A model generated the notes under the pieces. That model was not told the origin of the DNA, did no database searches, and saw nothing but the letters and a program-made list of their open reading frames with translations. Shown piece by piece: positions 382 through 14,460 of a DNA stretch of 48,771 nt (within the stretch, counting starts at the first letter, position 1; each line of letters opens with the position of its first letter). The DNA comes from Chitinophaga pinensis. GTDB lineage: Bacteria; Bacteroidota; Bacteroidia; Chitinophagales; CAMDFR01. Location: contig CAMART010000023.1 of NCBI GenBank assembly GCA_945860705.1, positions 1 to 48,771 on the forward strand, given 5' to 3'. The translations under genes and the position numbers were made by a program.

Positions 382-615
382 CTACATTTTAGATTTAATA
401 AAGTTTTCTATAAGTTCTATGCTGTCTAGATTATCTTTATCTACTTCATGAGGTTCAAATTCTACGTTAAATTCTTTTTCTAAATAATCAACAAGTTTTA
501 GGGTAGAAATAGAATCAATAATAGCACTTGATATGAGTGGTGTAGTATCATCAATCACTATCGTATCATCTTTTAATAGTTTTTCTACAATTATACTTTT
601 TATTTGTTCTCTCAT
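382..615 (-). CDS. Acyl/peptidyl carrier protein (DltC-like)
   Basis: A 77-residue acidic helical protein of the PP-binding (ACP/DltC) family. The phosphopantetheine attachment serine is visible as Ser35 in the motif IIDSIS (residues 32-37), followed by the usual helix TLKLVDYLEKEF. It would carry an activated acyl or aminoacyl group as a thioester in the cytoplasm, from the adjacent adenylating ligase to the membrane MBOAT acyltransferase. It sits 6 bases downstream of the MBOAT gene and 5 bases upstream of the ligase start, so the genes are very likely one transcript. The sequence cannot tell a D-alanyl carrier from a fatty or other acyl carrier; the operon context favours a Dlt-like role. 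Confidence 0.85.
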   Translation of the reverse strand: MREQIKSIIVEKLLKDDTIVIDDTTPLISSAIIDSISTLKLVDYLEKEFNVEFEPHEVDKDNLDSIELIENFIKSKM

Positions 616-621
616 TTCATG

Positions 622-3099
622 CTATTTTATGGTATCAAAATTAAAGTAATTTTGATGAATAACAATAGAATCATAGAGATGTTTGGCTATAATCTTATTT
701 GCTTTATTATTTGGATGAAAATCTACTTCTGATATATAAAGTTCTTTTTTATTTGTATTAACATATATTTTAGATAAATCTATAAGTTCTATTTGATGTT
801 TATTGCAAAGGTTGCTAATATATTTATATTCTATATCTATATTTTTATCTTTTATTGTAGGTAAAAACACTGCTACTACTTTCGTATTCTCACTTTTAGC
901 CAATGAATAAATGCTTTTAATAGAATAATCTATAAGCGAATCCATGTCGTTTCCCATTTTATTCATTATTTGTTCATCATTATCTAAACTATTTATTCTG
1001 TTTTTTTTCAATAAATTATTGAGATATGGGTCATCAATAGAACTAGCGTTTTTTAATAATCTAAATATATAATTTCCCATCCTATTTCGATAGTTGGTAT
1101 GCAGAAATAGCAGAATAGCATCTGGTTTGTATTGATTAGCTTTCCATTTATACTGATAGTAGCGTTGTAAGGGCATATATCCATTTACAGAAAAATTGAT
1201 TATTTCTGTATAAGTGTTTTGATTAAAAGAAATCTTATTTGAATTAATACGATTTTCAACTAAACTAATAAAATCTTCATTGTCATTGATACTATTGCCT
1301 GTTTCATGAGAACCACCTAAAACAACTATTCGATAGGTATTGCTTGGCTTTATAAGTGGATATTCTTTATCATGTAGACCAATACTATTTATAGAATATT
1401 GAATTCCATTAAAATCTATTTTTGTATTTGGAATATATTCCCCTATTAGAAGATTTTTTGTGTATCGCACTAGTTTTGTATTTGTAAATCTAGTCCATCG
1501 TTTTGAGTTTGTATTTTTATCTTCCCAGATTTGTGTAGTATAATTATTGGTACTTATTAGATTGCTATAATATCCATTATCAATATTTTTCATGTCTGGT
1601 CTATTAAGCCTTTCATACATCAAAGCATTTTCTAGCTTATTAACCAATTTTAAATTTGATTCATAAAAATAAATAAATGGTGCTATAAATAGGATAAAAA
1701 AGAATATAGATAGTGTGTTTTTGTGATTTACTAAAAGTTTGAAGCTAGTGTTCTTTTTGCTAAGATATAATTGATATGTAAATGATATGGTAAAATATAC
1801 GACTATAACTAAGGCTATTTTAGTTAATATATTAATATCAAAAAATCGTGCGGTATATATAAGGTTAAGCCAATTTTGAATAGATGGAGATATCCAAATA
1901 CTCCACAATATAGACATAGTAAGAAATACTCCTATAGACTTTATGGTATTGCTAATTAGAGGGAATTTACTTGGGTTTATTTTTTCATTGTTGTCTAGCT
2001 CTTTTTGTTGATTTATAGAGTTGTAACTTACAAGTAATCCAAAAATTCCCCAAAAAACAATATCTTTGATTAGGAATGGAAAGTTGCCATTTATCCAAAA
2101 CCATTGATAGCTATGCAATAGCCAAGTGATAAAGAAACAAGACATCGTAGCAAAAAATATAGAACTATATATACCCCATTTTTTAATTTTAAAATATATA
2201 GGATAGTAATATACCTTCAAAATAAAAGCTTTCCAATAAATATTTGTTCTTCGCCATAAATCACTAAAACTAGTAGCAAAAAATAAGTTGTTAAATATAT
2301 CAGGAACATTATATCCTGTAAGCATAATCATACCGAGTGCAATATGAAAAGCTCCAATAACTCTCCATACTAACAGGAAATTATAAATAAAATAAGTAAA
2401 TATATCGTATAAATTATCTATGTCACTTATAGACCGAATTAAAAAATGATAAATAAATCGATAAAGTAATAATTGAAATATACCTCTAATAATAAATAAT
2501 ATAGCACGTTGTACAATTTTTTGATCTATTTTTTGGTAAGAGCTACTAAATGATTTTAAATCAACTATAGGAAACAATGGTAAACTCAGATTAGGAAGCA
2601 ATAGAAAATAATTGATTCTATGTATTAGATCAATTGGTTTTTTCTGGTTTTTGATTTCATATAAATAAATGATAGATCTAAACATAAATAAACTTCCAAC
2701 TACATAAGCAATAATATCGAATTTTTCAAGAAAAGGAGATGATATCAAGTATATGCATGCTAAACACAAAATACTAGTGTAGAAAATTATTTTTTTGTAA
2801 GTAATATTATATTCGGCTAATAATATAAAAAGAAAATAGACAATAGTGAGAATAATAAATATAACTAAAAGACTCTGATAGATAGCTACTAAGCCTATAA
2901 CAAAAAATAAGGGCAATAAATATTTACTATTTGATGAGAAAAAAAAACTATACAAACTAAATAAGAGTACGATGATATATACAGGTAGGAGATTAAAGTT
3001 TTTTTCTAACTGAAATAAATAGATGATTATGCCTAAAAATATTAAAAAGGCATAATGAATATATATATTATTAAAAATTCGACTAATTTTATCTATCAT
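622..3099 (-). CDS. MBOAT acyltransferase fused to SGNH hydrolase-like domain (DltB-DltD-like fusion)
   Basis: An 825-residue membrane protein. Residues 1-490 carry many hydrophobic segments with MBOAT hallmarks: LWRR at 281-284, followed by TNIYWKAF, and the conserved His329 in WLLHSYQWFW. After a last membrane segment (about 463-478), residues about 500-825 form a soluble, presumably extracytoplasmic SGNH domain. This has Ser597 in GGSHETGN and the block V pair Asp793/His795 in DFHPN. In Dlt systems the MBOAT DltB and the SGNH-like DltD are separate proteins that pass D-alanine from DltC to a cell-surface polymer; here both functions are on one chain. The start ATG overlaps the stop of the upstream sulfotransferase by 4 bases. 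The alternative is an O-acyltransferase of other specificity, but the carrier protein and ligase next door favour Dlt-like chemistry. Confidence 0.82.
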   Translation of the reverse strand: MIDKISRIFNNIYIHYAFLIFLGIIIYLFQLEKNFNLLPVYIIVLLFSLYSFFFSSNSKYLLPLFFVIGLVAIYQSLLVIFIILTIVYFLFILLAEYNITYKKIIFYTSILCLACIYLISSPFLEKFDIIAYVVGSLFMFRSIIYLYEIKNQKKPIDLIHRINYFLLLPNLSLPLFPIVDLKSFSSSYQKIDQKIVQRAILFIIRGIFQLLLYRFIYHFLIRSISDIDNLYDIFTYFIYNFLLVWRVIGAFHIALGMIMLTGYNVPDIFNNLFFATSFSDLWRRTNIYWKAFILKVYYYPIYFKIKKWGIYSSIFFATMSCFFITWLLHSYQWFWINGNFPFLIKDIVFWGIFGLLVSYNSINQQKELDNNEKINPSKFPLISNTIKSIGVFLTMSILWSIWISPSIQNWLNLIYTARFFDINILTKIALVIVVYFTISFTYQLYLSKKNTSFKLLVNHKNTLSIFFFILFIAPFIYFYESNLKLVNKLENALMYERLNRPDMKNIDNGYYSNLISTNNYTTQIWEDKNTNSKRWTRFTNTKLVRYTKNLLIGEYIPNTKIDFNGIQYSINSIGLHDKEYPLIKPSNTYRIVVLGGSHETGNSINDNEDFISLVENRINSNKISFNQNTYTEIINFSVNGYMPLQRYYQYKWKANQYKPDAILLFLHTNYRNRMGNYIFRLLKNASSIDDPYLNNLLKKNRINSLDNDEQIMNKMGNDMDSLIDYSIKSIYSLAKSENTKVVAVFLPTIKDKNIDIEYKYISNLCNKHQIELIDLSKIYVNTNKKELYISEVDFHPNNKANKIIAKHLYDSIVIHQNYFNFDTIK

Positions 3100-3887
3100 G
3101 TATCAAAATTATAACTATTAAATATAGGTAAAGAAATTATTTGTTCGTTTACAATTTCTTTTTCACTTTGATTCCAATCGTATAAAATTCTACTTTTATT
3201 ATTTTTAGTAAGTAATTTGCTTGCAATATTTTTTATAAATTCATCGTTAATATCTAATTCTAAAAAATCAAATAGGTTGTAAATAAACTGTGCTGTATTT
3301 GCTATTAAGTCCTCATGTTTCAGTGTGATAATATCATATTTATTACTATCAATGATCTCTTGATTTGTTTTTGCTTCTTGTAGTATAGCTTCTATACTTT
3401 GATTGATTCCTTCTTTTGTTATTTCTGTTTTTTGTAAGTTTTTATAAGATGCTTTAGTTGTGATTATATCAAAAGGATTTCGAGTAATATGGATGATTTT
3501 TAATGGTAATTGAACAAATTGCTCTAGTTCATCTAAAATAAGTTTATTATTCATTATTTGGTTTGTAGTACCACTTCCTTTTTTATCACCTATTATCATT
3601 AATTTATCTGATTTTCCTTGTGATAAATCTTCGAAAACATACGAATATCCATATGATTGCCTACCTGTTTTTGCCTGTTCTGATGACAACTCAACTAATT
3701 TATTGAATAATATATTATTGTTTTTAAATAATTTATAATTTTTCACCACATCATATTCGTGAGAAATACACGCATTTGGGTGTGCATCTATTATAGAACC
3801 TATAATACTATGACCACTTCTAGGGTATCCAATAAAGAGACAAAAGTACTTTAAGGTATCATTTAAATGTTTTTTTGTAAAATTCAC
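3096..3887 (-). CDS. Sulfotransferase family protein
   Basis: A 263-residue protein of the PAPS-dependent sulfotransferase fold. The 5'-phosphosulfate loop is visible at residues 20-29 (GYPRSGHSII). The 3'-phosphate-binding strand-helix is at 135-147 (TRNPFDIITTKAS). It would transfer sulfate from PAPS to a carbohydrate hydroxyl. No ATG is available near the N-terminus; the start is a GTG at 3885-3887, placed just ahead of the P-loop strand at the spacing usual for the family. A Bacteroidota -7-like element, CAAAAATA (TATTTTTG on the minus strand), lies at 3892-3899. The gene is first in the leftward operon and overlaps the MBOAT-SGNH gene by 4 bases, which ties sulfation and acylation together. 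The acceptor is unknown. Confidence 0.82.
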   Translation of the reverse strand: MNFTKKHLNDTLKYFCLFIGYPRSGHSIIGSIIDAHPNACISHEYDVVKNYKLFKNNNILFNKLVELSSEQAKTGRQSYGYSYVFEDLSQGKSDKLMIIGDKKGSGTTNQIMNNKLILDELEQFVQLPLKIIHITRNPFDIITTKASYKNLQKTEITKEGINQSIEAILQEAKTNQEIIDSNKYDIITLKHEDLIANTAQFIYNLFDFLELDINDEFIKNIASKLLTKNNKSRILYDWNQSEKEIVNEQIISLPIFNSYNFDT

Positions 3888-3943
3888 ACAACAAAAATAA
3901 CGAAATATTTACAAATTCATGCTTAGATTTGCTAAATAAGCTT

Positions 3944-4735
3944 ATGATATCATTATTTAGTGCATATAAAAAAAATAGATTTTTAATAGCAGAACTATTG
4001 AAGCAAAATTTATTTACCCAATACAAACAATCTAAATTCTCACTTTTTTGGATTGTATTCAATCCTTTTTTTCAAATCATTATCTGGTCTATTCTCCATC
4101 TATCAGGCTTTCTTAAGATAGGGAATGTTGAAGTGCCATATGTAATTTATCTAGTTTCTGGAATTACGCTTTGGTGGTATTCGTTTAGTTTATACGAATC
4201 TATTTCAAATATTTATATAAAATATACAAATGTGATTTTAGAAAACAGATTTGATATTTTAGTGCTTGTAGTCGAAGCAATCATAAGACAAACCATATTT
4301 TTCATGATACATCTAGCAGTTTTGTTTGTCTTATGTGTGATATATAAAATTACTTTTTATCCAATAGCTGTCTTATATCCATTTTTTATTGTACCACTTA
4401 TATTATTTAGTGTTGCTTTAGGATTAATATTTGCTACAATCAGAGTCTTGTCAGTAGATTTTGCTATGATATTCGATAAGATATTTGGCTTGTCATTATT
4501 TCTTACACCAATATTATTTAAGCCAACTTTTAATAATACAGTTTTGAAGTATATTATTAAATTTAATCCACTGAGTTATTTGATTACATTTCCAAGAAAT
4601 TTATTATTGTACGGCAAATCACCTTCGTTTTTTGTCGTTATATTTATAGTAGTATTAAGCATTACTAGTATTGTTGTTGCAATGATGTATTTTGAAAAAA
4701 TGAAATATAAAACCATAGAAAAATTATTACAATAA
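3944..4735 (+). CDS. ABC-2 type polysaccharide export permease (Wzm-like)
   Basis: An integral membrane protein of 263 residues with about six hydrophobic segments. Its N-terminal cytoplasmic part matches ABC-2 polysaccharide exporters: ELLKQNLFTQYKQSKFS followed by LFWIVFNPFFQ. A C-terminal NPLSYLITFPRNLLLYG element is also typical of Wzm/TagG/RfbA permeases. It would form the membrane channel for export of a lipid-linked polysaccharide. I prefer the ATG at 3944; a TTG at 3929 would add five residues. The stop TAA shares its last base with the ATG of the following ATPase gene, as expected for the two halves of one exporter. It is the first gene of the rightward operon. Confidence 0.88.
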   Translation: MISLFSAYKKNRFLIAELLKQNLFTQYKQSKFSLFWIVFNPFFQIIIWSILHLSGFLKIGNVEVPYVIYLVSGITLWWYSFSLYESISNIYIKYTNVILENRFDILVLVVEAIIRQTIFFMIHLAVLFVLCVIYKITFYPIAVLYPFFIVPLILFSVALGLIFATIRVLSVDFAMIFDKIFGLSLFLTPILFKPTFNNTVLKYIIKFNPLSYLITFPRNLLLYGKSPSFFVVIFIVVLSITSIVVAMMYFEKMKYKTIEKLLQ

Positions 4736-5475
4736 TGTCAGATATTGTATTAGAAATAACATCTTTAAGTAAGTCTTTCTCACTATTGGGAGAGGAAAAT
4801 ATATTTAGCTTATTATTTTCTATAAAATCTAGAAGTTCAAATAATATAGCTCCACTGAAAAATATTTCATTAAATATAAAAAGAAATGAAATCGTAGGTG
4901 TATTAGGAATAAATGGTAGTGGCAAAACTACACTCACTAGAATCATAACAGGAATATATAAACATGATGAAGGAACCATTATTAAAAATGGTAATATAGT
5001 AGCAATTTTTGCACTTAGATCTGGATTTAACCCATTGCTTACAGGTAGAGAGAATATTTATTTAAAAGGAGCTTTTTATGGGTTAAATAAAAAAGAAATT
5101 GATGAAAATTTAAATGAAATTATTCGTTTTTCTGAATTAGAAGAATTTATTGATAAGCCACTTGGAATATACTCATCTGGTATGCGAGCAAAACTAGGAT
5201 TCGCCATACTCACACAAGTAAGAGCAGATTTGTTTATCATAGATGAAGCACTTGCAGTAGGGGACAAAAATTTTCGAACAAAATGTATGAACTATTTAGT
5301 TGAAAATAAAAATAATAGCTCTGTGATTTTTATCACTCATTTTCAAGAACATCTACAAAATTTTGCAGATAGAATATTGATTCTAAATAATGGTATGATT
5401 GAATTTGAATCTAAAGATTATACTGAAGCAACAAGTTTTTACAATACAATAAAAAGTAAGCAGATAGATGAGTAA
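4735..5475 (+). CDS. ABC transporter ATPase for polysaccharide export (Wzt-like)
   Basis: A 246-residue nucleotide-binding subunit. It has a Walker A motif at 58-65 (GINGSGKT), a signature sequence at 146-152 (YSSGMRA), and Walker B with D-loop at 166-177 (LFIIDEALAVGD). The N-terminal insertion before Walker A is typical of TagH/Wzt-type polysaccharide exporters. It ends soon after the ATPase core, so the C-terminal carbohydrate-binding domain found in some Wzt proteins is absent. With the preceding permease it should power export of the glycan built by this locus. The next gene begins inside its last codons (8-base overlap), indicating translational coupling. Confidence 0.9.
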   Translation: MSDIVLEITSLSKSFSLLGEENIFSLLFSIKSRSSNNIAPLKNISLNIKRNEIVGVLGINGSGKTTLTRIITGIYKHDEGTIIKNGNIVAIFALRSGFNPLLTGRENIYLKGAFYGLNKKEIDENLNEIIRFSELEEFIDKPLGIYSSGMRAKLGFAILTQVRADLFIIDEALAVGDKNFRTKCMNYLVENKNNSSVIFITHFQEHLQNFADRILILNNGMIEFESKDYTEATSFYNTIKSKQIDE

Positions 5476-6139
5476 TATAAAATTAGTTTCTTTGCATATA
5501 CCAAAAACAGCTGGTACTTCGTTTTATAAAACTATTCAAGATGCATATGGTATTACTTCAGTTGCACGCCTAGATATAAAACCAAATATCAATAAAATTT
5601 TACTAAATACCATAGAATATAACGATACTTTTTTACCAGATGAAATTGAAGTTATTCATGGACATTTTAATGTTTTAGATTTATATGAAAAATATCCTGA
5701 AACTAAAGATTTACCTATGATTACTTGGCTTAGAGACCCAGTTACAAGAGTGATATCTAATTATTTCTATTTACAAGAAAGATTAACAACATTTTTATCA
5801 AATCATGAAAACAATAGAGCTATATTAGATAAAATGATGAAATCAATAGAAGAGTTTATTGCTACTGATATTAATCGTAATAAAATGAGTAGATTTTTAA
5901 TAGGAAAAAATCTTTCAGATTTTAAGTTTGTAGGTTTGATAGAATATTATGAAGAAGATTTACAATCTTTATCTAATTTATTAAATATACAATTTAATCA
6001 AAACCAAGTAAATGTTACTGCAAACGATAATAAATATGATGTTTCAAGTGATATCATCGAATTAATAAAACAATATAATCAAGAAGATATTGCCCTTTAT
6101 GAAGAAGCTATAAGTATAAGAAATAAAAGATTGTCATAA
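5468..6139 (+). CDS. Sulfotransferase (heparan-sulfate 2-O-sulfotransferase-like class)
   Basis: A 223-residue protein beginning with the PAPS-binding loop LHIPKTAGTSF at residues 9-19, characteristic of the Sulfotransfer_2 / Gal-3-O and 2-O-sulfotransferase group. The 3'-phosphate-binding element LRDPVTRVISNY is at 88-99. Other features, such as HGHF at about 64-67, also fit this class. It likely sulfates a sugar of the polysaccharide made here. It differs in class from the other three sulfotransferase domains of the locus, which have the PRSG motif, so at least two acceptor positions are plausible. It overlaps the exporter ATPase by 8 bases and lies 3 bases before the next sulfotransferase gene. 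Confidence 0.85.
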   Translation: MSNIKLVSLHIPKTAGTSFYKTIQDAYGITSVARLDIKPNINKILLNTIEYNDTFLPDEIEVIHGHFNVLDLYEKYPETKDLPMITWLRDPVTRVISNYFYLQERLTTFLSNHENNRAILDKMMKSIEEFIATDINRNKMSRFLIGKNLSDFKFVGLIEYYEEDLQSLSNLLNIQFNQNQVNVTANDNKYDVSSDIIELIKQYNQEDIALYEEAISIRNKRLS

Positions 6140-6142
6140 TAA

Positions 6143-6991
6143 ATGAAACTCTGGCTGGCATCATATCCTCGAAGTGGCAATACATTTTTTAGAAATATTT
6201 TACACGATTGCTATTCTATATCATCATCTACATTTGATACACAAATTGAATTTAGAAAATATGTAGACTATGAATCCTTTGATGTAGTAAAAACACATGA
6301 GCTTTTTGAATTATTACCACCACATTTAAAAGATATACCAAAAGTATATATACTCAGAGATGGGAGAGATGCTATAGTTTCGCAAGCTTACCAAATGATC
6401 AATTATAAAAAATCTACTTTAGCTCCATATTTATTAATGATTGATATGATTTTAAGTAAAGATAATTCACACTATGGAGGCTGGAGTTCCAATGTTGAAT
6501 CATGGTCTAGAGTGTCAGATGTAATTATCAAATTTGAAGATTTAATTTTAAAACCAATTGATGAAGTAAGTAGAATAAAAGATATATACAATTTACCTAA
6601 TCCAGAATTAGACAATATACCAAGTTTTCAATCGCAAAAAAATGATGGTGCAAAGTATGGTAATCCAGAGAATAAATTTCAGCATTTTTTCAGAAAAGGT
6701 ATCCCAGGTTCATGGAGAGACGATATGCCTATGATCATTCAAGATTTGTTTTGGAAGTATCACGGAAATACAATGTCGAAATATGGTTATACATTTGATA
6801 ATAATTATAAAAATGTCTTAGATGACAAAATAAGTATAAAGAAAAATATAATTAAATATTTGGTTTATGGTAAACCTGTAGATAAACATCTTTATAAAAT
6901 ATTATTGAATATTACTATAAATAAACCTATATATTTTTTACTTTCGTTATACTATATTATTAGAGAGCTTTTATATTCTATTATAAAATAA
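6143..6991 (+). CDS. Sulfotransferase (Sulfotransfer_1-like)
   Basis: A 282-residue protein with the PAPS 5'-phosphosulfate loop at 5-16 (LASYPRSGNTFF), the 3'-phosphate-binding element at 70-80 (ILRDGRDAIVS), and the C-terminal FRKGIPGSW loop that closes over PAPS. Its first ~230 residues align by eye along their whole length with the N-terminal half of the next gene, so the two look like tandem duplicates. Residues after about 230 have a short hydrophobic tail (KPIYFLLSLYYIIRELL) that may be a membrane-associated helix. It lies 2 bases before the next gene in the glycan operon. The acceptor sugar is unknown. Confidence 0.88.
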   Translation: MKLWLASYPRSGNTFFRNILHDCYSISSSTFDTQIEFRKYVDYESFDVVKTHELFELLPPHLKDIPKVYILRDGRDAIVSQAYQMINYKKSTLAPYLLMIDMILSKDNSHYGGWSSNVESWSRVSDVIIKFEDLILKPIDEVSRIKDIYNLPNPELDNIPSFQSQKNDGAKYGNPENKFQHFFRKGIPGSWRDDMPMIIQDLFWKYHGNTMSKYGYTFDNNYKNVLDDKISIKKNIIKYLVYGKPVDKHLYKILLNITINKPIYFLLSLYYIIRELLYSIIK

Positions 6992-6993
6992 CT

Positions 6994-9054
6994 ATGAAAA
7001 TCTGGTTAGCATCTTATCCTCGTAGTGGCAATACATTCCTCAGAAATGTGTTGTTTCAATGCTATGGATTGGAGTCTAGTACTTATCATCATGAAACCAC
7101 TTATTCTTTAGAAGAAAATTTTCATCTATCAGATATAGTCAAAACACATCTACTTCCACATGAGCTCCCAATTGAATACAAAGATCTACCAAAAGTATAT
7201 TTGATAAGAGATGGCAGAGACGCAGTAGTTTCAATGGCACATCACAAAAAAGATTTGATAGATATTGGTACAGATTTTAATGATAATCTAAAAGAAATAA
7301 TTATAGCAGCCGAAGGTTCGCATTTTAGTGGTTGGTCGGAGCATGTAGCTCAATGGATGGAAGCAGCAGATATAATTATCAGCTATGAAGATTTAATAAA
7401 AGATCCAATAAAAGAAGTAGAAAAAATCAGAAAAATTTATGATTTACCTCAGCCAGATGCAAGTAAACTATTAAGTTTCAATGAACTCAAATCTGGTAAT
7501 GCGAATTATGGAAGTGGCAAATTTCATAACCTTACTGGTGATGATGAAAAAACTTTTTCAGCAAAAAATTTTAGAAAAGGGAAAGCAGGTGCTTGGGTAG
7601 AGGAGATGAATGAATTTCAAAGAGATTTATTTTGGAATTATCACGGACACATCATGAAGAAAATGGGTTATATGTATGATGGTACTTACAATGAAATCGA
7701 TTCATTTTCATTAGGTAAAATCAAATCTAAGCTAGGTGAGAATATAACAATCAACAACAAAACTTATAAGGTTTTAATCGATGCCTCAAAAATTCTTGGT
7801 ACAACTACAGATGGTGTAAAAAGGTATGTAGTTGAGCTTTTGAGAGAGCTAAAAGATGTACAAAAATTTGGCAATCATTCATTTCATTTTCATATTTATC
7901 TAAATGGAAAAATTTTTGACATAGAAGAAGTCGATTTTTTTATTGATAAACCTATTGATAATGCCCAAGAGTATTTTTTATATGAGCGCATTCTATTATT
8001 TATAAGGAAGAGTATAAAATTTTTATTGCCAAAATTCATTTATGATAAACTCAGTCCTTATTACAGAAATACTAATTTTAGAGAAAAATTACTTTTGATA
8101 CGTGAAAAGATTTCACAAGATATTTTTTATAAAAAAATTCTAAATAGAGATAAAAATTCCAATCATTTTATTTCATATGATTTAGTTCATGTTACATTAC
8201 CACAGCATCTTTCACAGTTCTTATTGAATGATATAAAGACTCTAGTTACGGTGCATGATGTGAGTCATCAATCTCATCCAGAATTTCATGTAGACAATAA
8301 TAATTTGTTAGCTGAAAAAGGGTTTGAAATTATTGTAGATAAAAAACTACCCATTATTTCAGTAAGTAATTCCACTAGTGCAGAGTTAACTAAATTTTAT
8401 AAGATAGGTAGTGAAAAAATAAATACAATTTACGAAGCTACCAATACAAAACTATTTAAATATAATACCAACAATCACTTATTAGAAGATATAAAAAATA
8501 GATATAACATTCCAAAAGATAAAAAGTATTTCCTTTGTCTTTCTACAATTGAGCCAAGAAAAAATATATTAAATACCATTAAAGCATTTAAAAAATTCGT
8601 ATCCGATACAAAATCTGAAACTATTTTAGTAATTGCAGGTAAAAAAGGATGGAAATATGAGGAGCTTTTTGCAGATAATGCGATACAAGACAATATAGTA
8701 TTTACAGGATTTGTAAGAGATAGAGACCTCAGTGCATTATATACCGGTGCTCTTGCTTTTTGTTATGTTTCGCATTACGAGGGATTTGGTTTGCCTATAC
8801 TTGAAGCTATGAGTTGCAGAGTGCCAGTTATATGTGGCAATAATACATCACAAATAGAGATACTTGGCGCTGGTGGTATTGCTGTTGATAGCAATGATGT
8901 TGAGGCTATTTGTAACGCAATGCAAACTATGTCTGATGAACAAAAAAGAGAAGCATATGCAATACTTGCTTGGCAACAATCATTCACATTCAATTGGTAT
9001 AAAACAGCATTGGATACATTATCTATTTATAAAAAAGTAATAGAAAGTAATTGA
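6994..9054 (+). CDS. Bifunctional sulfotransferase - GT4 glycosyltransferase fusion
   Basis: A 686-residue two-domain protein. Residues 1 to about 240 are a sulfotransferase closely like the preceding gene product: LASYPRSGNTFLRN at 5-18, IRDGRDAVVS at 71-80, and an FRKGKAGAW loop. From about residue 258 a GT-B fold glycosyltransferase begins (VLIDASKILGTTTDGVKRY). It carries STIEPRKN at 517-524 and the donor-binding YEGFGLPILEAM from residue 595, both typical of family GT4. The fusion suggests that a sugar is added and sulfated in one complex. The frame is continuous and no stop interrupts the junction. Its stop codon overlaps the start of the next glycosyltransferase by one base (TGATG). 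Confidence 0.88.
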   Translation: MKIWLASYPRSGNTFLRNVLFQCYGLESSTYHHETTYSLEENFHLSDIVKTHLLPHELPIEYKDLPKVYLIRDGRDAVVSMAHHKKDLIDIGTDFNDNLKEIIIAAEGSHFSGWSEHVAQWMEAADIIISYEDLIKDPIKEVEKIRKIYDLPQPDASKLLSFNELKSGNANYGSGKFHNLTGDDEKTFSAKNFRKGKAGAWVEEMNEFQRDLFWNYHGHIMKKMGYMYDGTYNEIDSFSLGKIKSKLGENITINNKTYKVLIDASKILGTTTDGVKRYVVELLRELKDVQKFGNHSFHFHIYLNGKIFDIEEVDFFIDKPIDNAQEYFLYERILLFIRKSIKFLLPKFIYDKLSPYYRNTNFREKLLLIREKISQDIFYKKILNRDKNSNHFISYDLVHVTLPQHLSQFLLNDIKTLVTVHDVSHQSHPEFHVDNNNLLAEKGFEIIVDKKLPIISVSNSTSAELTKFYKIGSEKINTIYEATNTKLFKYNTNNHLLEDIKNRYNIPKDKKYFLCLSTIEPRKNILNTIKAFKKFVSDTKSETILVIAGKKGWKYEELFADNAIQDNIVFTGFVRDRDLSALYTGALAFCYVSHYEGFGLPILEAMSCRVPVICGNNTSQIEILGAGGIAVDSNDVEAICNAMQTMSDEQKREAYAILAWQQSFTFNWYKTALDTLSIYKKVIESN

Positions 9055-10139
9055 TGAAAAAGATAGCCATCATAGCAGACCCAATGGACAATCAGCAAGC
9101 TGGTGTGCATATCTATACAAAAAATATGGTCTATTCATTACTTCAAAATGATACCGAGAACTATTACATTATTTATAAAGAAAAAAAAGATTCATACTTA
9201 GATTCGTATTCAAATTGCAAACAAGTAATTATTACCAATTTTATTGGTTTTACAGCTATTAGAAAGTTTGTTTTACTACCAATACTAAGTGTTTATTATG
9301 GTGCAAATATTGTAATTGAACCAGCCCATTTTGGACCATTTTTATTACCTAAAAAAATCAAACGTATCACAGTAATTCATGATTTAAGTGCAGTATTATT
9401 TCCTCAATGGCATAGCTATTATAGTAGTATTCTTCAAAAAATATTTTTAAATAGAATTTTGAAAAAAGCATCATTAATTATTTCTAATTCCTTTTTTACA
9501 GAAAAAGAAATTATTAAGTATTATCCATTTACGAAAGATAAAATTCAAACTATTTATCCAGGTGTGATAAGTGATACCATACAAGATGAAAAAGAAATTG
9601 ATACTAAGAAAATTCCGTATTTTTTGTTTGTTGGTACAATAGAGCCTCGCAAGAATCTCAACTTACTTTTAAATGCTTTTAAAAAATACAAAGACGAAGT
9701 AAAAGATGATAAACAATTAATAATAGTTGGTGCAAAAGGATGGAAAACGGATAGTTTTTTTGAAATATATAATCAGCATCCATATAAGAATGAGATCATT
9801 CTAACAGGTTTTGTTACAGATGAGGAACTAAAAAAATACTATAAAAACTGTTATGCATTTATTTATCCTTCTCAATATGAAGGTTTTGGTTTCCCAGTGA
9901 TAGAAGCCATGCGACAAGGTACAGTATGCGTCACTACCGCAGATTCTAGTATGAGCGAAATAGCTTATCCATTTGTGATTACTTTTCAAAACAATAATTT
10001 AAAAAGCTTGTTTAATGCTATGTGTCAAATTGAAAATTTTAAAAATGTAACAAGAAGTGATGAAATTATAATCCATTCACAAAAATATGATTGGGATATA
10101 TTTGCAAAAGCTTTTATTAAAAAAATGAATAACTTATGA
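9054..10139 (+). CDS. Glycosyltransferase family 4 protein
   Basis: A GT-B fold glycosyltransferase of 361 residues. The N-terminal acceptor domain has a glycine-containing loop (ADPMDNQQAGVHIY). The C-terminal nucleotide-sugar domain has VGTIEPRKNLNLLLNAF and YEGFGFPVIEAM. It resembles the GT4 half of the upstream fusion protein. It probably adds one sugar to the lipid-linked repeat that the ABC exporter moves. I chose the ATG at 9054, which overlaps the upstream TGA, over the TTG one codon earlier. The stop overlaps the antiporter start by 4 bases (ATGA). Confidence 0.88.
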   Translation: MKKIAIIADPMDNQQAGVHIYTKNMVYSLLQNDTENYYIIYKEKKDSYLDSYSNCKQVIITNFIGFTAIRKFVLLPILSVYYGANIVIEPAHFGPFLLPKKIKRITVIHDLSAVLFPQWHSYYSSILQKIFLNRILKKASLIISNSFFTEKEIIKYYPFTKDKIQTIYPGVISDTIQDEKEIDTKKIPYFLFVGTIEPRKNLNLLLNAFKKYKDEVKDDKQLIIVGAKGWKTDSFFEIYNQHPYKNEIILTGFVTDEELKKYYKNCYAFIYPSQYEGFGFPVIEAMRQGTVCVTTADSSMSEIAYPFVITFQNNNLKSLFNAMCQIENFKNVTRSDEIIIHSQKYDWDIFAKAFIKKMNNL

Positions 10140-11374
10140 CCAATTTAGAATTATTCATACATGTAGCCTGTGCTATGGCAGTGATCATTTTTATGGCTCG
10201 ACTTGTCGGCTCTATGATGGTATATATCAATCAGCCTCGTGTAGTAGGAGAGATGATAGCTGGTGTTTTATTAGGTCCTACTCTTTTTAGTACCATTCTA
10301 CCAGAAGTAACTACGTATCTTTTTGCAGATACCAAACCTATTATTTATTTTGTAGGCAATCTTGGTCTATCTTTTTATATGTTTATGGTGGGCATGGACA
10401 TCGATTTTAGTAAAGTAGATAAAAGTATAAGAAAGCAAGCAACAATATTATCTATTGTAGCAACCATTATTCCTTTTTTGATGGGATGCCTTGCAGCTTA
10501 TATGTTTTACGATCAGTTAGCATTGCCAAATATTTCATTTTTAGTTTTCGCTATATTTCTTGGTACTGCACTATCTATCATGGCTTTCCCTATGTTGGCT
10601 CGTATTTTAGATGAAAAAAAATTGATACAAACAAAACTTGGTTCCTTAGCTTTACTTTCTGCTAGTGGACAAGATGTAGTGACTTGGATATTGCTCGCAT
10701 TTATTTCTTCATTGGCAGCTACAGGATTATTTACCCAAGGGTTTATTACTCTCGGTGGTGCTGTAGTTTTTATATTTATTATTTTTTTAGTTGCAAAACC
10801 CTTATTGAATCTATTAGTAAAAGATATTCAGAAAAAAGGAGAATTGAATCAAACCCATTTTGCAATCATTATTATATCGGTGTTACTAGCAGCTATTATT
10901 ACTGATAAGATAGGATTATATAGTGTATTTGGTGGTTTTATATTTGGATTGGCTATACCTAGAGAAAAAATACTTATAGATACGTTGAAAAATAAAATTC
11001 AAGATATAGTAGTAGTTATGCTATTGCCTCTATTTTTTGCTTTTTCAGGTCTTAAAACCAATTTTCTACAAATATTTACAGCCTCAATGATTGTTCCTAC
11101 TATTGTTATAGTGCTTTTTGCATTTGCGTGTAAGTATATTCCCGTTTTATTTACTATGAAATTTAGTGGCTACTCTTGGCGAGAATCTTCAGCCACAGCA
11201 GGATTGATGAATGCACGAGGACTTATGGAGTTGATTGTTGCTAGTATTGGTCTAGAATACAATATTATAGATGCAAATACCTTTTCTATCTTAGTATTGA
11301 TAGCTGTTACTACTACGCTTGCAGCCATGCCTATTTACAATTGGAGCATGAAAGGAGTTGAACTTAAAGAATAA
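10136..11374 (+). CDS. Cation:proton antiporter (CPA2/KefB family)
   Basis: A 412-residue polytopic membrane protein of the Na+/H+ exchanger (CPA2) family with about 12-13 hydrophobic segments. Visible family features are VVGEMIAGVLLGPTLF near residues 36-51, ALSIMAFPMLARIL, SASGQDVVTWILLAF (the acidic residue region of the ion site), and MNARGLMELIVASIGLEYNI near the C-terminus. It has no C-terminal regulatory domain, unlike the 706-residue antiporter at 15252. The start overlaps the upstream glycosyltransferase stop by 4 bases, so it appears to be the last gene of the glycan operon, although its function has no obvious link to glycan synthesis. Confidence 0.87.
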   Translation: MTNLELFIHVACAMAVIIFMARLVGSMMVYINQPRVVGEMIAGVLLGPTLFSTILPEVTTYLFADTKPIIYFVGNLGLSFYMFMVGMDIDFSKVDKSIRKQATILSIVATIIPFLMGCLAAYMFYDQLALPNISFLVFAIFLGTALSIMAFPMLARILDEKKLIQTKLGSLALLSASGQDVVTWILLAFISSLAATGLFTQGFITLGGAVVFIFIIFLVAKPLLNLLVKDIQKKGELNQTHFAIIIISVLLAAIITDKIGLYSVFGGFIFGLAIPREKILIDTLKNKIQDIVVVMLLPLFFAFSGLKTNFLQIFTASMIVPTIVIVLFAFACKYIPVLFTMKFSGYSWRESSATAGLMNARGLMELIVASIGLEYNIIDANTFSILVLIAVTTTLAAMPIYNWSMKGVELKE

Positions 11375-11423
11375 TTACTATTATTTTTTGGACTAACCAG
11401 ATAAGTCACAAATGCCTATTTTT

Positions 11424-11564
11424 TATGCCCATCGTCATTGAATAGTTTTATCTACAAAACAAGTTTGCTTATAAGCTATGGATAATGCATCATTAAAATG
11501 GTGTGGCAGATAAAATTACAATATAGTCAAAATAATATCGCCACACCTTATTTTAATGGGCATA
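11424..11564. repeat. Nested inverted repeat, MITE-like or structured RNA
   Basis: The outer arms are TATGCCCA (11424-11431) and TGGGCATA (11557-11564), which are perfectly complementary. The inner arms are CATTAAAATGGTGTGGC (11491-11507) and GCCACACCTTATTTTAATG (11540-11558). These match apart from two extra bases in the right arm, around a 32-base loop. Such nested arms suggest a small non-autonomous mobile element or a long hairpin in the 3' leader/trailer region. No transposase is nearby. Confidence 0.55.
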
Positions 11565-11610
11565 AGTAAATGTAGTTTTGTGATAAAAGGATTCAAAGAC
11601 TTGTTTTTTT

Positions 11611-11634
11611 GCTTCTTTTTTATCAAGAAAAAAG
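11611..11634. repeat. Palindromic hairpin (CTTCTTTTTT / AAAAAAGAAG)
   Basis: An intergenic hairpin with complementary arms CTTCTTTTTT and AAAAAAGAAG, separated by a short ATCAAG-type loop and followed by GTCGCCAAAGGC. It resembles interspersed intergenic palindromes seen in Bacteroidota genomes (recalled, not searched). It could also fold at the end of the antiporter transcript, but it lies more than 200 bases beyond that stop. Confidence 0.5.
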
Positions 11635-11777
11635 AAGTCGCCAAAGGCAAAAAATGTATATATTCTATTGTGTTTTCTTTTTTACAAGTAAATTGTGGTC
11701 TAAATGGGTAAACCAGATTATTTATTATTAGTTGTAAAACTATACAATTTTGTATTTACTATTTCATACATTTCATG

Positions 11778-11785
11778 TACATTTG
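11778..11785 (+). promoter_or_regulatory. Putative sucC -7 promoter element
   Basis: TACATTTG matches the Bacteroidota -7 consensus TAnnTTTG exactly and lies 32 bases before the sucC ATG. A TTTG at 11749-11752 is the only upstream -33 candidate, but the 25-base gap is longer than the 20 seen at rpsO, so only the -7 element is claimed. Confidence 0.45.
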
Positions 11786-11817
11786 TACACTCAAAAATTA
11801 AATAAAAATACTATTTT

Positions 11818-13011
11818 ATGAATTTACACGAATATCAAGCTAAAGATGTACTAAAAAAACATGGTGTAGCTATACAAGAAGGTATCATGGTAGAAAACGC
11901 TGACGATGCGGTAGCTGCAGCTAAAAAACTAACAGAACAAACAGGTACTTCTTGGCATATCATTAAAGCTCAAATACATGCAGGTGGAAGAGGTAAAGGA
12001 GGTGGAGTAAAACTTGCTAAAAACCTAGATGAAGTAAAAGAAAGAGCAAGTGCAATCATAGGAATGATGTTGATTACACCTCAAACTTCTGCAGAGGGTA
12101 AATTAGTTAGAAAAGTGCTAGTAGCTCAAGATATGTATTATCCTGGAGAAAGCGAACCAAAAGAATATTATGTTTCTATACTACTTGATAGAAATACTAA
12201 AAGAAATGTGATTATCTATTCTACTGAAGGAGGTATGGATATCGAGCATGTAGCAGAAGTTACACCACATTTAGTTCATAAAGAATGGATAGATCCTTTA
12301 GTAGGTTTCCAAGCTTTTCAAGCTAGAAAAATTGGCTTTAACTTAGGTCTTAGTGGCAATGCGTTCAAAGATTTCACTAAGTTTATTTCTAATGTATACA
12401 ATGCTTATATTGGTGCAGACGCTACATTAATAGAAATTAATCCTTGTTTAAAAACAAGTGATAATAAAATCATCGCAGTGGATGGTAAAATGAGTATTGA
12501 TGATAATTCATTATTCAGACAACCTGATTTAGCAGGTATCGAAGATAAATTAGAACAAGATCCTATAGAAGTAGAAGCTCACAGCTACGATTTGAATTAT
12601 GTAAAATTAGACGGAAACGTTGGTTGTATGGTCAATGGTGCTGGTCTTGCTATGGCTACTATGGATATCATCAAATTGAGTGGTGGTGAACCTGCCAACT
12701 TCCTAGATGTAGGAGGTACTGCCAATGCAGAAAGAGTAGAAAAAGGATTCAGAATCATTCTGAAAGACCCTAAAGTAAAAGCTATTTTGGTAAATATCTT
12801 TGGTGGTATTGTGAGATGTGATAGAGTAGCTCAAGGTATCGTAGATGCTTATAAATCTATTGGTGAAATACCTGTTCCTATCATTGTAAGACTTCAAGGA
12901 ACCAATGCAGAAGAAGCTAAAAAAATAATCGTTGATAGCGGTCTAAAAGTACACTCAGTTATTTTGCTTAAAGAAGCAGCTGATAAAGTAAAAGAAGTAT
13001 TATCCGCATAG
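11818..13011 (+). CDS. sucC: Succinate-CoA ligase (ADP-forming) beta subunit
   Basis: A 397-residue ATP-grasp protein that matches SucC over its full length. It begins [17 protein letters not shown] and has the nucleotide-binding loop [18 protein letters not shown]. It carries the conserved IEINPC segment and ends with [18 protein letters not shown], the phosphohistidine-facing glycine motif. With the alpha subunit SucD it interconverts succinyl-CoA and succinate in the TCA cycle, with substrate-level ATP formation. No sucD is in the window: the gene is closed by a hairpin terminator at 13053 and followed by a convergent gene. The start ATG is unambiguous. Confidence 0.97.
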
Positions 13012-13049
13012 ACTTAATCAAATAAAATCATACAATTGTGTGGTTATTA

Positions 13050-13081
13050 AAAAACTCCAGCTTTAGCTGGAGTTTTTTTTG
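13050..13081 (+). terminator. Intrinsic terminator after sucC (bidirectional shape)
   Basis: A perfect stem ACTCCAGCT / AGCTGGAGT (13053-13073) with a three-base TTA-type loop, flanked by an A run and a T8 tract. It lies 40 bases after the sucC stop. The A run on the other side means it can also serve leftward transcription. Confidence 0.92.
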
Positions 13082-13152
13082 TAATAGATTCAGGTTTTTT
13101 CTGTTTTAAATTCTATTAACACATCTGCATTATAAGTATAAACATTAAATAA

Positions 13153-14460
13153 CTATTTTTTCTCTAGCCCTTCCTTATACACTTTTAAGCATCGTTCTCT
13201 TGCATATTTATGATCTACTATAGGTTGTGGGTAGTTGAGTGAGTCTAATTCTGGAATCCATTTACGAATGTATTGGAGTTTATCATCAAATTTTTTAGTC
13301 TGCTCCGATGGACTAAATATTCTAAAATAGGGTGCCGCATCAGTACCACTTCCCGACGCCCACTGCCAGCCACCATTGTTTGATGCGAGTTCAAAATCTA
13401 TAAGTTTTTGTGCAAAATAAGCTTCGCCCCAACGCCAATCTATCAGTAAATGTTTAGTAAGAAAACTAGCAACAATCATACGCACTCTATTGTGCATATA
13501 GCCTGTATTATTGAGTTCACGCATGCCTGCATCTACTATTGGGTATCCAGTTTTACCTTCACACCATGCTTCAAAATCTTTTTCATCTGTTCTCCATTTT
13601 ATTGCATCATATTGTTTTTTAAAAGCATTATGAACTACATGAGGAAAATTGAATAATATCATCTGATAAAAATCTCGCCATATCAATTCATTCAAAAATT
13701 GTTCATTGTTTGCTAATGCTATATTAGCAAGTTTTCTTATAGATATAGTACCAAATCTAAGGTGAATACCTAGTGTTGATGTACCTTTGAGTGCTGGAAA
13801 ATTTCTAGTTTTATCGTAATGAGCAATTATATTAGTCGGTATTTCAATACTTGGTAAGAATGTATCATTATAGATAAAACCCATATCTTCTAGACTTGGT
13901 AGTTCTTGAAGTTTGATTTTATATAAATTTTGAATGTATTTTTCTGTAGGATATTCTTTTAGATAAAAATCATTGAGTTTACTTTTCCATTTTTTACTGT
14001 AAGGTGTAAACACTGTATATGGTGTACCATCATCTTTCCCAACTTCCATTTTTTCAAAAATCACCGCATCTTTATAGGTATTAAATTGAATATTATTTTG
14101 GTGGAAATAATCATTTAAATATTCATCTCTTTGAATCCCGTATGGTTCGTAGTCGTGATTTGCATATACTAAATCTACATTATAATCATTTAAAATCGAT
14201 TTCCATATTTCTTCCGGAAAGCCATATTTCACTATTAAATCAGCACCATATTCTTGTAGTTGTTTTTTAAACTTTTGTATTTGCAGATATATAAACGTGA
14301 CTCTTCTATCATCTTTATCTACTAGTTTATCTAAGATGTTTTTATCAAAAATAAAAAGACATATAACCTTATGAGGAGATTTCAGCGCTTCATGTAAAGC
14401 GGTATTATCTTCTATTCTTAAATCTCTTCTAAACCAATGAATACTTACTTTTTCGTTCAT
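13153..14460 (-). CDS. phr: Deoxyribodipyrimidine photolyase (cryptochrome/photolyase family)
   Basis: A 435-residue protein. The N-terminal alpha/beta antenna domain begins VSIHWFRRDLRIEDNTAL (residues 5-22). The C-terminal FAD domain has WRDFYQ (261-266), TGYPIVDAGMREL (304-316), GYMHNRVRM (320-328) and NGGWQWASGSGTDAAPYFR (362-380), the flavin-binding and lesion-binding core of class I CPD photolyases. It repairs UV-induced cyclobutane pyrimidine dimers with blue-light energy. The length is close to the usual ~430-470. A cryptochrome or DASH role cannot be excluded from sequence reading alone, but WASGSGTDAAPYFR is the classic photolyase form. It converges on sucC with the shared terminator between them. 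Confidence 0.93.
   Translation of the reverse strand: MNEKVSIHWFRRDLRIEDNTALHEALKSPHKVICLFIFDKNILDKLVDKDDRRVTFIYLQIQKFKKQLQEYGADLIVKYGFPEEIWKSILNDYNVDLVYANHDYEPYGIQRDEYLNDYFHQNNIQFNTYKDAVIFEKMEVGKDDGTPYTVFTPYSKKWKSKLNDFYLKEYPTEKYIQNLYKIKLQELPSLEDMGFIYNDTFLPSIEIPTNIIAHYDKTRNFPALKGTSTLGIHLRFGTISIRKLANIALANNEQFLNELIWRDFYQMILFNFPHVVHNAFKKQYDAIKWRTDEKDFEAWCEGKTGYPIVDAGMRELNNTGYMHNRVRMIVASFLTKHLLIDWRWGEAYFAQKLIDFELASNNGGWQWASGSGTDAAPYFRIFSPSEQTKKFDDKLQYIRKWIPELDSLNYPQPIVDHKYARERCLKVYKEGLEKK

Follow-up and report, generated by a model that had tools for sequence, protein, structure and literature searches.

What does a locus make that places sulfotransferases, glycosyltransferases and an exporter beside a membrane acyltransferase and the start of an acylation operon? 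The question is raised by the left end of contig CAMART010000023.1 (C23) of the Chitinophaga pinensis assembly GCA_945860705.1 (GTDB lineage Bacteroidota; Chitinophagales; CAMDFR01). The window analysed is this entire contig of 48,771 bp; the genome (G000) comprises 2.94 Mb in 46 contigs and has a completeness rating of 100%. A preliminary description of the window had proposed a surface polysaccharide that is exported, sulfated and acylated. According to the analysis presented here, to which we assign a probability of about 0.68, a machine resembling the Dlt system transfers pyrrole-2-carboxyl groups, derived from proline and perhaps halogenated, to a glycan that is sulfated and exported. The chemistry proposed for this route is deduced from protein families and residues, and it is the neighbouring genes that point to a glycan as the acceptor.

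The locus is organized in two divergent operons (Table 1). On the plus strand, genes for Wzm, Wzt, a Sulfotransfer_2 and a Sulfotransfer_1 protein, a Sulfotransfer_1-GT4 fusion, a GT4 enzyme and a Na+/H+ antiporter follow each other with gaps of -8 to +3 bp. On the minus strand, a sulfotransferase gene is followed, after gaps of -4, 6 and 5 bp, respectively, by the genes for an MBOAT-SGNH fusion, for a carrier protein and for an adenylation enzyme that is present up to residue 125; the overlap between this sulfotransferase gene and the MBOAT gene, already noticed in the preliminary description, amounts to 4 bp (3096-3887 versus 622-3099). In the sister genome G002, the order from MBOAT to GT4 is as in the window except for the separate gene at 6143-6991, at identities of 45-73%, and in G003 it is kept minus 3096-3887, 6143-6991 and the last GT4 gene. 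Because gene order recurs in both genomes, the locus is a real unit rather than a product of chance, and coincidental neighbourhood was ruled out by synteny in G001-G003 together with co-occurrence across the order.

The contig end truncates the acylation operon, and its most telling genes lie outside the window. The part of the adenylation enzyme on C23 corresponds to residues 6-127 of the G002 enzyme, with 42% identity over 7-127, and a second part, 57% identical to residues 151-503, is encoded on contig C27 (4-1062). There it is followed by genes for an acyl-CoA-dehydrogenase-like protein of 374 aa, a halogenase-like flavoprotein of 461 aa and a convergent methyltransferase. The adjacency of C23 and C27 is deduced from synteny with G001-G003. 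In C23 plus C27, and in G001, G002 and G003 as far as their contigs reach, the operon thus reads MBOAT-SGNH, carrier, adenylation enzyme, acyl-CoA-dehydrogenase-like enzyme and halogenase-like flavoenzyme. In two of the four sister genomes, G001 and G003, an extra PaaK-like AMP-binding gene lies after the halogenase-like gene (L029:2936-4288, L086:7842-9155).

Which acyl group would this operon activate? For the pocket region of the window's own adenylation (A) domain, the best solved match is the L-proline--[L-prolyl-carrier protein] ligase 6o6e (5e-19), and DltA 7vhv also matches (1e-15). The nine specificity positions, located via anchors of GrsA, read DLFYLALVC in G000-G003 and agree with 6o6e (DLLYLALVC) at eight of nine positions, compared with DLMVFCTVA in DltA 7vhv. 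Two DltA models scored the C27 fragment at 265 and 248 bits, far below their cut-offs of 476 and 560. D-alanylation was rejected on the grounds that the code differs from that of DltA. The attachment site of the carrier, IDSIS, is identical in the three copies aligned.

The two oxidative enzymes suggest what may happen to a carrier-bound prolyl group. Among solved chains, 6cxt is closest to the dehydrogenase, followed by the prolyl-acyl carrier protein (ACP) dehydrogenase 4irn and the L-prolyl-carrier dehydrogenase 5zw0; Glu237 aligns with a Glu of 5zw0 that is Ala in the related chain 6af6. A set of 19 dehydrogenases was compared, consisting of the genome's own enzyme and 18 others with a clean reading frame from the 34 four-gene loci described below or their like. 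W236-E237-R238 and a YSG motif are invariant in all 19, and every one matches both the PigA and the RedW model of NCBIfam (E up to 1e-60). These are also the top models for the own enzyme, with 338 and 288 bits, respectively, the next model scoring 194 bits. The nine best PDB matches of the flavoenzyme are all halogenases by name, 3e1t (1.4e-44), CmlS (4e-42), ChlB4 and PltA (1e-31) among them. The Lys of its RKPG motif aligns with KKP of CmlS, a lysine with a catalytic role in flavin-dependent halogenases. WxWxIP is a motif of the latter enzymes; Lewinella-type copies of the flavoenzyme read WIWMIP, the own copy reads WIFVIP, and IP is missing in three of the eight copies from the order (G265, G365 and G042).

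An unlikely, though not negligible, alternative is that the carrier hands over proline or dehydroproline, the dehydrogenase being a two-electron enzyme and the flavoenzyme not a halogenase. The deviating motifs of the flavoenzyme would fit, as would the fact that 4irn (AnaB, a two-electron enzyme) is as close to the dehydrogenase as 5zw0. Moreover, three genomes of family f8 retain MBOAT, carrier and A domain without dehydrogenase or flavoenzyme, so that transfer of an unoxidised prolyl group seems possible. However, the best curated models for the dehydrogenase are of the pyrrole-forming type, the pyrrole halogenase PltA is a relative of the flavoenzyme, and the Lewinella-type copies carry the complete motif. 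The set of prolyl ligase, carrier, prolyl dehydrogenase and halogenase-like enzyme in one operon is the reason to predict pyrrole-carboxyl as the substituent.

The protein that would transfer this group was recognized by its fold. A Pfam scan found no MBOAT match in the 622-3099 protein, and a profile of aligned MBOAT-SGNH sequences retrieved chance matches only from the PDB sequences, making a comparison of folds necessary. The AlphaFold model computed from 46 aligned sequences (45 of the 76 listed frames and the window's own copy) had a predicted local distance difference test score (pLDDT) of 86.9 and a predicted template modelling score of 0.84. Its top Foldseek matches were DltB 8jem (6.9e-7) and then 6bug, also a DltB entry. 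In VIA-align, residues 31-412 superimposed on 8jem with Z 20.4 (362 residues, root-mean-square deviation 4.2), whereas the C-terminal half resembled CgnD 8a2n (Z 21.6, residues 525-812) and SGNH esterases (Z about 16, residues 585-822). His329, Ser597, His795 and G509-Y510-Y511 are identical in all 46 sequences, and Asp793 in 43. PMC12148441 describes an invariant Tyr within an FXYXXF peptide, in PatA and DltX, that takes over the acyl group at the MBOAT and delivers it to the SGNH protein. FXYXXF is absent from the linker of the fusion, where an invariant GYYxx[LIM] lies between the domains instead. By analogy, this segment is a natural candidate for the acyl shuttle in the fused protein. Stretch 509-524 has a pLDDT below 50 and hence is perhaps mobile.

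Is the acceptor sulfated, exported and a polymer? The preliminary description had counted four PAPS (3'-phosphoadenosine 5'-phosphosulfate)-binding sulfotransferase domains of at least two classes within 6 kb. This was borne out: each domain exceeds its Pfam gathering cut-off, and together they span 4.6 kb and represent two Pfam classes. Their 5' PAPS loops read YPRSGHS, IPKTAGTS, YPRSGNTF and YPRSGNTF in the translations; a scripted pattern recovered the last three and missed the first, which was read from the translation. The top Foldseek match of the Sulfotransferase B model is the heparan sulfate 6-O-sulfotransferase 5t03 (E 1.5e-5). The Wzm/Wzt-like exporter and the two GT4 domains, also predicted earlier, were recovered as well: ABC_tran passed its cut-off, both GT4 domains were matched (Table 1), and the identity of Wzm derives from a weak score (galactan Wzm of NCBIfam, 28.4 bits, cut-off 380) and from synteny, its gene adjoining Wzt in the sister genomes too. 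On these sequence features, the permease and ATPase qualify as a pair of the Wzm/Wzt export type.

The supply of PAPS, for which the preliminary description had suggested searching the genome, appears secured, and the lack of a PAPS pathway, named there as a ground for refutation, does not apply. The adenosine 5'-phosphosulfate (APS) kinase CysC is encoded on contig C1, and CysD and CysN are adjacent on C22. CysD is the sole match to the PAPS_reduct family in the genome, and no NIR_SIR (sulfite/nitrite reductase) domain was found, while the same search was positive in 11 of 14 control genomes. Thus, G000 apparently activates sulfate without assimilatory reduction, and this activation would serve sulfation rather than cysteine synthesis. 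A further gene of the Sulfotransfer_1 family is located on C6. A second glycan-type locus (L026, G000:C1:16100-36000, 6582-12467) contains the genome's only APS kinase gene together with genes for a Wzz/tyrosine-kinase-like protein, a Poly_export protein, a Sulfotransfer_4 protein and a Wzt of 423 aa that matches Wzt_C weakly. As CysC adjoins Wzt and Sulfotransfer_4 there, the PAPS supply is common to another glycan-type locus.

That Wzm/Wzt exports an oligosaccharide-lipid rather than a polymer, the product being a small pyrrole-bearing sulfated glycolipid or a secreted natural product, is improbable in our view. Such a product would be in line with the presence of only two GT4 enzymes, without a polymerase, and with a Wzt that lacks a Wzt_C match. 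Within the locus there is also no initiating sugar-phosphate transferase, for which no genome-wide search was made. A polymer is favoured by the Sulfotransfer_2 protein, which resembles a polymer-acting enzyme, by the exopolysaccharide-type locus around the Mesorhizobium cassette described below, and by the activity of MBOAT-SGNH systems outside the membrane on envelope polymers, as stated in PMC12148441.

Whether acylation and sulfation genes stay together in related genomes was examined across 396 genomes of the order, the top two to three candidates per genome being scored. The MBOAT-SGNH profile matched in 23 of them, 17 strongly (best E 9e-86 or better); the six other genomes, matched only weakly through the SGNH half (E 1e-11 to 1e-13; G008, G013, G165, G213, G221 and G375), were left out of the 17. 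A profile of 20 prolyl-type A domains scored at least 590 bits in 13 genomes and 469 bits for the split own copy, and all 14 of these genomes fall within the 17, compared with none of the 379 others (Fisher 3e-23). The A domains of G108, G120 and G140, the f8 genomes mentioned above, scored 407-457 bits and overlap the best outsiders (456), but they adjoin MBOAT and have the codes DLHYLALVC or DIFYLAFVC. A prolyl-type A domain accordingly accompanies MBOAT-SGNH in 17/17 genomes, in three of them (G160, G235 and G355) on the same contig at a distance of 10-17 kb. In 13 of the 17, the A domain comes with both dehydrogenase and flavoenzyme, the exceptions being the f8 genomes and G327, where neither lies beside it. 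In the f8 loci (L081, L082 and L083), MBOAT-SGNH, carrier and A domain adjoin sulfotransferases, and this version may perhaps transfer prolyl instead of pyrrole. A different variation was observed in G160, where one sulfotransferase locus (L073, G160:C61:54001-74000, 2879-13274) contains four full-length MBOAT-SGNH paralogues in a row, as if they served several positions or acyl groups.

Sulfotransferase genes share a stretch with MBOAT in 12 of the 17 genomes and, in G001, lie on another small contig with Wzm/Wzt, giving 13/17; they were not seen near MBOAT-SGNH in G042, G265, G365 and G327. Thirteen of the 396 genomes have an intact sulfotransferase-GT4 fusion, and in G001 the fusion is divided between contigs; counting G001, it occurs in 11 of the 17 MBOAT-SGNH genomes versus 3 of the 379 others (Fisher 5e-15). 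In family f5, sulfotransferase and GT4 are separate neighbours, and the two f5 genomes listed by the profile search have no MBOAT-SGNH. The halves for sulfation and acylation are therefore linked but separable, since both are present in 13/17 genomes yet each also occurs alone. The sulfated and acylated exported glycan of the preliminary description is thus supported by the PAPS genes, the Sulfotransfer_2 fold and this co-occurrence; the nature of the acyl group had escaped it, the predicted substituent being a proline-derived pyrrole-carboxyl group instead of an ordinary acyl ester.

The acylation genes extend far beyond the order. When 84,980 species genomes were scanned with 16 MBOAT-SGNH sequences, 216 relatives were confirmed, and the best 80 of them yielded 77 loci. 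These include many short contigs and near-duplicates, namely seven Mesorhizobium loci and genomes also in the order-wide set (G001-G003, G160, G205, G227, G235, G241, G265, G327, G355 and G365). Of the 77 loci, 34 combine MBOAT-SGNH with carrier, A domain and dehydrogenase, and eight of these also have the flavoenzyme. By label, the 34 loci represent seven phyla: Bacteroidota, Rhodothermota, Pseudomonadota (Mesorhizobium, Methylomonas, Accumulibacter, Rhodoferax), Gemmatimonadota, Verrucomicrobiota, Acidobacteriota and Calditrichota; as many records are metagenome-assembled genomes (MAGs), individual assignments could be in error. Among the 41 A domains above 400 bits, for which codes were counted, 25 read exactly DLLYLALVC and 40 fit the general pattern. 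The sole departing code, ALFYCAQVC, was found in a Roseivirga MAG (L147, 7985-9514), whose A domain may load something other than proline. All seven Mesorhizobium genomes (L114-L116, L119, L123, L124 and L132) encode MBOAT-SGNH, carrier, a DLLYLALVC ligase and dehydrogenase. In M. muleiense CGMCC 1.11022, the neighbours of this cassette encode a Wzx-type protein, GT4s, an initiating sugar transferase and a pyruvyltransferase, with no sulfotransferase in the stretch examined, which argues for a polysaccharide acceptor without sulfation. The Lewinella cohaerens locus additionally contains a further Sulfotransfer_2 protein, two Sulfotransfer_3 proteins, a sulfatase and a separate Pfam MBOAT.

The same loci bear on whether an ordinary sulfated polysaccharide is decorated with acetyl or a similar acyl group while the proline-pyrrole genes serve a separate metabolite. 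Other MBOAT/SGNH pathways do use acyl-CoA, Dlt being the system with a carrier as donor (PMC12148441). Furthermore, sulfotransferases occur in 16 of the 77 loci, and within the stretches examined 12 of these have no A domain above 400 bits, leaving four with both. However, the carrier gene directly follows MBOAT in 34 of the 77 loci with a median gap of 14 bp, the prolyl-type A domain is found in all 17 genomes of the order with a strong MBOAT-SGNH match, and the closest fold is the carrier-using DltB. We thus regard this explanation as very improbable; a fatty acid or acetyl donor is disfavoured by the carrier-MBOAT adjacency.

Taken together, the following route for the pyrrole-bearing sulfated glycan can be proposed. 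In the cytoplasm, the two GT4 enzymes, one of them fused to a sulfotransferase, and the sulfotransferases would build a sulfated glycan for export by Wzm/Wzt. The adenylation enzyme would charge the stand-alone carrier with L-proline, the dehydrogenase would oxidise the carrier-bound prolyl group to pyrrole-2-carboxyl, and the pyrrole ring may then be halogenated by the flavoenzyme. The DltB-like MBOAT half (His329) would then accept the group from the carrier and pass it to a tyrosine of the GYY linker, as in teichoic acid D-alanylation, and the linker would deliver it to the SGNH half (Ser597, Asp793, His795), which would esterify the exported glycan.

Several observations weigh against this proposal, in addition to the closeness of 4irn, the WIFVIP motif and the genomes that lack the two oxidative enzymes beside the A domain. 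The dehydrogenase (338 of 500 bits for PigA, 288 of 650 for RedW) and the flavoenzyme (190 of 900 for CmlS) score well below the equivalog cut-offs of NCBIfam, and their exact activities are therefore not assured. The A domain is split over two contigs joined by synteny, about two dozen of its residues being unseen, and other A domains of the order have partly similar codes (DILYLALVC in L185). The linker carries GYYxx[LIM] instead of FXYXXF, and the locus offers only two glycosyltransferases and no initiating one. Finally, G339, G172 and G146 possess the sulfotransferase-GT4 fusion without a strong MBOAT-SGNH match, and the counts for the order reflect the few top candidates scored per genome.

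How does the predicted system relate to known ones? With the Dlt pathway of teichoic acid D-alanylation (DltA/B/C/D/X) it has in common an adenylation enzyme, a stand-alone carrier, an MBOAT of the DltB fold with an invariant His, an SGNH partner with a Ser-Asp-His triad (here a fused domain) and a conserved Tyr segment as a possible carrier of the acyl group. It differs in its prolyl instead of D-alanyl code, in the additional dehydrogenase and halogenase-like enzyme, in the fusion of MBOAT and SGNH with a GYY linker replacing the FXYXXF of DltX, and in its occurrence in glycan loci of Gram-negative hosts. The system thus appears to work like Dlt without being a member, given that the code of its A domain is not of the D-alanine type. 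The upstream steps are reminiscent of proline-derived pyrrole starter cassettes, such as PltF/PltL/PltE with PltA, PigI/PigA and RedM/RedW, which likewise combine a prolyl A code and a stand-alone carrier with relatives of the prolyl-carrier dehydrogenase and, for the flavoenzyme, of the PltA family. Those cassettes lead into a polyketide synthase or prodigiosin pathway, whereas the genes analysed here end in a membrane acyltransferase and a glycan locus, and the PigA and RedW scores lie below the equivalog cut-offs. In the aminocoumarin antibiotics clorobiocin and coumermycin, a sugar hydroxyl receives pyrrole-2-carboxyl from a carrier; there, soluble transferases act on a small antibiotic, whereas here the predicted acceptor is an exported glycan that an MBOAT-SGNH fusion would reach across the membrane. 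The two folds and an acyl-Tyr shuttle segment are shared with PatA/PatB and further O-acetylation systems of the MBOAT-SGNH kind, but these are separate proteins using acyl-CoA, in contrast to the fusion and carrier found here (PMC12148441). Sulfotransferases are linked to exopolysaccharide synthesis in bacterial sulfated exopolymer loci, for example in Pontiella, a member of another phylum (PMC7356697); the fused sulfotransferase-GT4, the ABC exporter and the pyrrole cassette set the present locus apart from these. In searches of the open-access literature, transfer of a proline-derived pyrrole from a carrier to glycans by an MBOAT was not described, and nothing paired MBOAT with prolyl-AMP ligase, pyrrole or exopolysaccharide; pyrrole-2-carbox combined with O-antigen retrieved unrelated papers only, and work on DltB/DltD carriers and on sulfated exopolysaccharides supplied no more than background. 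Within that literature, each module is known, and the combination and predicted product are new.

Table 1. Genes of the locus at the left end of the window (positions of contig C23).
Feature	Position	Strand	Evidence and remarks
Adenylation (AMP-ligase) enzyme, N-terminal 125 aa	2..376	-	Truncated by contig end; remaining 355 aa on G000:C27:1-1068
Stand-alone carrier protein (peptidyl or acyl carrier, PCP/ACP), attachment site IDSIS	382..615	-	Pfam PP-binding 30.1 bits (cut-off 20.8)
MBOAT-SGNH fusion, 825 aa: DltB-like membrane acyltransferase, GYY linker 509-511, SGNH transferase domain	622..3099	-	AlphaFold model and fold matches
Sulfotransferase A, 263 aa, opens acylation operon	3096..3887	-	Sulfotransfer_1 35.6 bits, Sulfotransfer_3 32.2 bits; G002 homologue 52.6%
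Wzm-like ABC exporter permease	3929..4735	+	ABC2_membrane 21.9 bits (cut-off 26.9); homologues 58% in G002, 47% in G003
Wzt-like ABC exporter ATPase	4735..5475	+	ABC_tran 72.1 bits; without Wzt_C match
Sulfotransferase B, carbohydrate-type (Sulfotransfer_2)	5468..6139	+	34.8 bits; model pLDDT 91.2
Sulfotransferase C (Sulfotransfer_1)	6143..6991	+	65.1 bits
Sulfotransferase-GT4 fusion, 686 aa	6994..9054	+	Sulfotransfer_1 residues 2-224 (74.6 bits), Glycos_transf_1 residues 499-653 (115.5 bits)
GT4 glycosyltransferase	9051..10139	+	Glycos_transf_1 102.6 bits; 62% in G002
Na+/H+ antiporter	10136..11374	+	Na_H_Exchanger 163.8 bits

The Na+/H+ antiporter gene overlaps the last GT4 gene by 4 bp. It was rejected as a member of the system because it is not kept in G003, where a VIT1 gene occupies that spot, and it probably stands outside the conserved unit. 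Elsewhere in the window, a cyanophycin-synthetase-like protein of 872 aa (25319-27937, plus strand) is encoded in the local G+C peak, and a protein with a Por secretion (type IX) C-terminal sorting domain lies at 42674-44605 (minus strand).

For the most part, the known decorations of bacterial glycans are small groups (acetyl, pyruvyl, phosphate, sulfate, amino acids), and pyrrole made from proline is more familiar as a part of antibiotics and pigments than as a decoration of sugars on the cell surface. Against this background, it seems fairly probable that a machine present in several phyla, which joins the logic of Dlt to pyrrole chemistry of the antibiotic type, puts an aromatic, possibly halogenated pyrrole-2-carboxyl group made from proline on extracellular polysaccharides; Saprospirales-type Bacteroidota would use it on sulfated glycans, Mesorhizobium and others on exopolysaccharides. 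If the proposal is correct, an MBOAT-SGNH fusion with a carrier, a DL?Y?ALVC ligase and a WER dehydrogenase would provide a signature for genome mining, and MBOAT transfer from a carrier protein, described for D-alanylation in PMC12148441, would gain a second type of acyl group. Gene-encoded aromatic, perhaps halogenated, polymer esters would then form a new class of surface chemistry and would bear on phage and host recognition, ultraviolet or redox behaviour, metal binding and the cohesion of biofilms.

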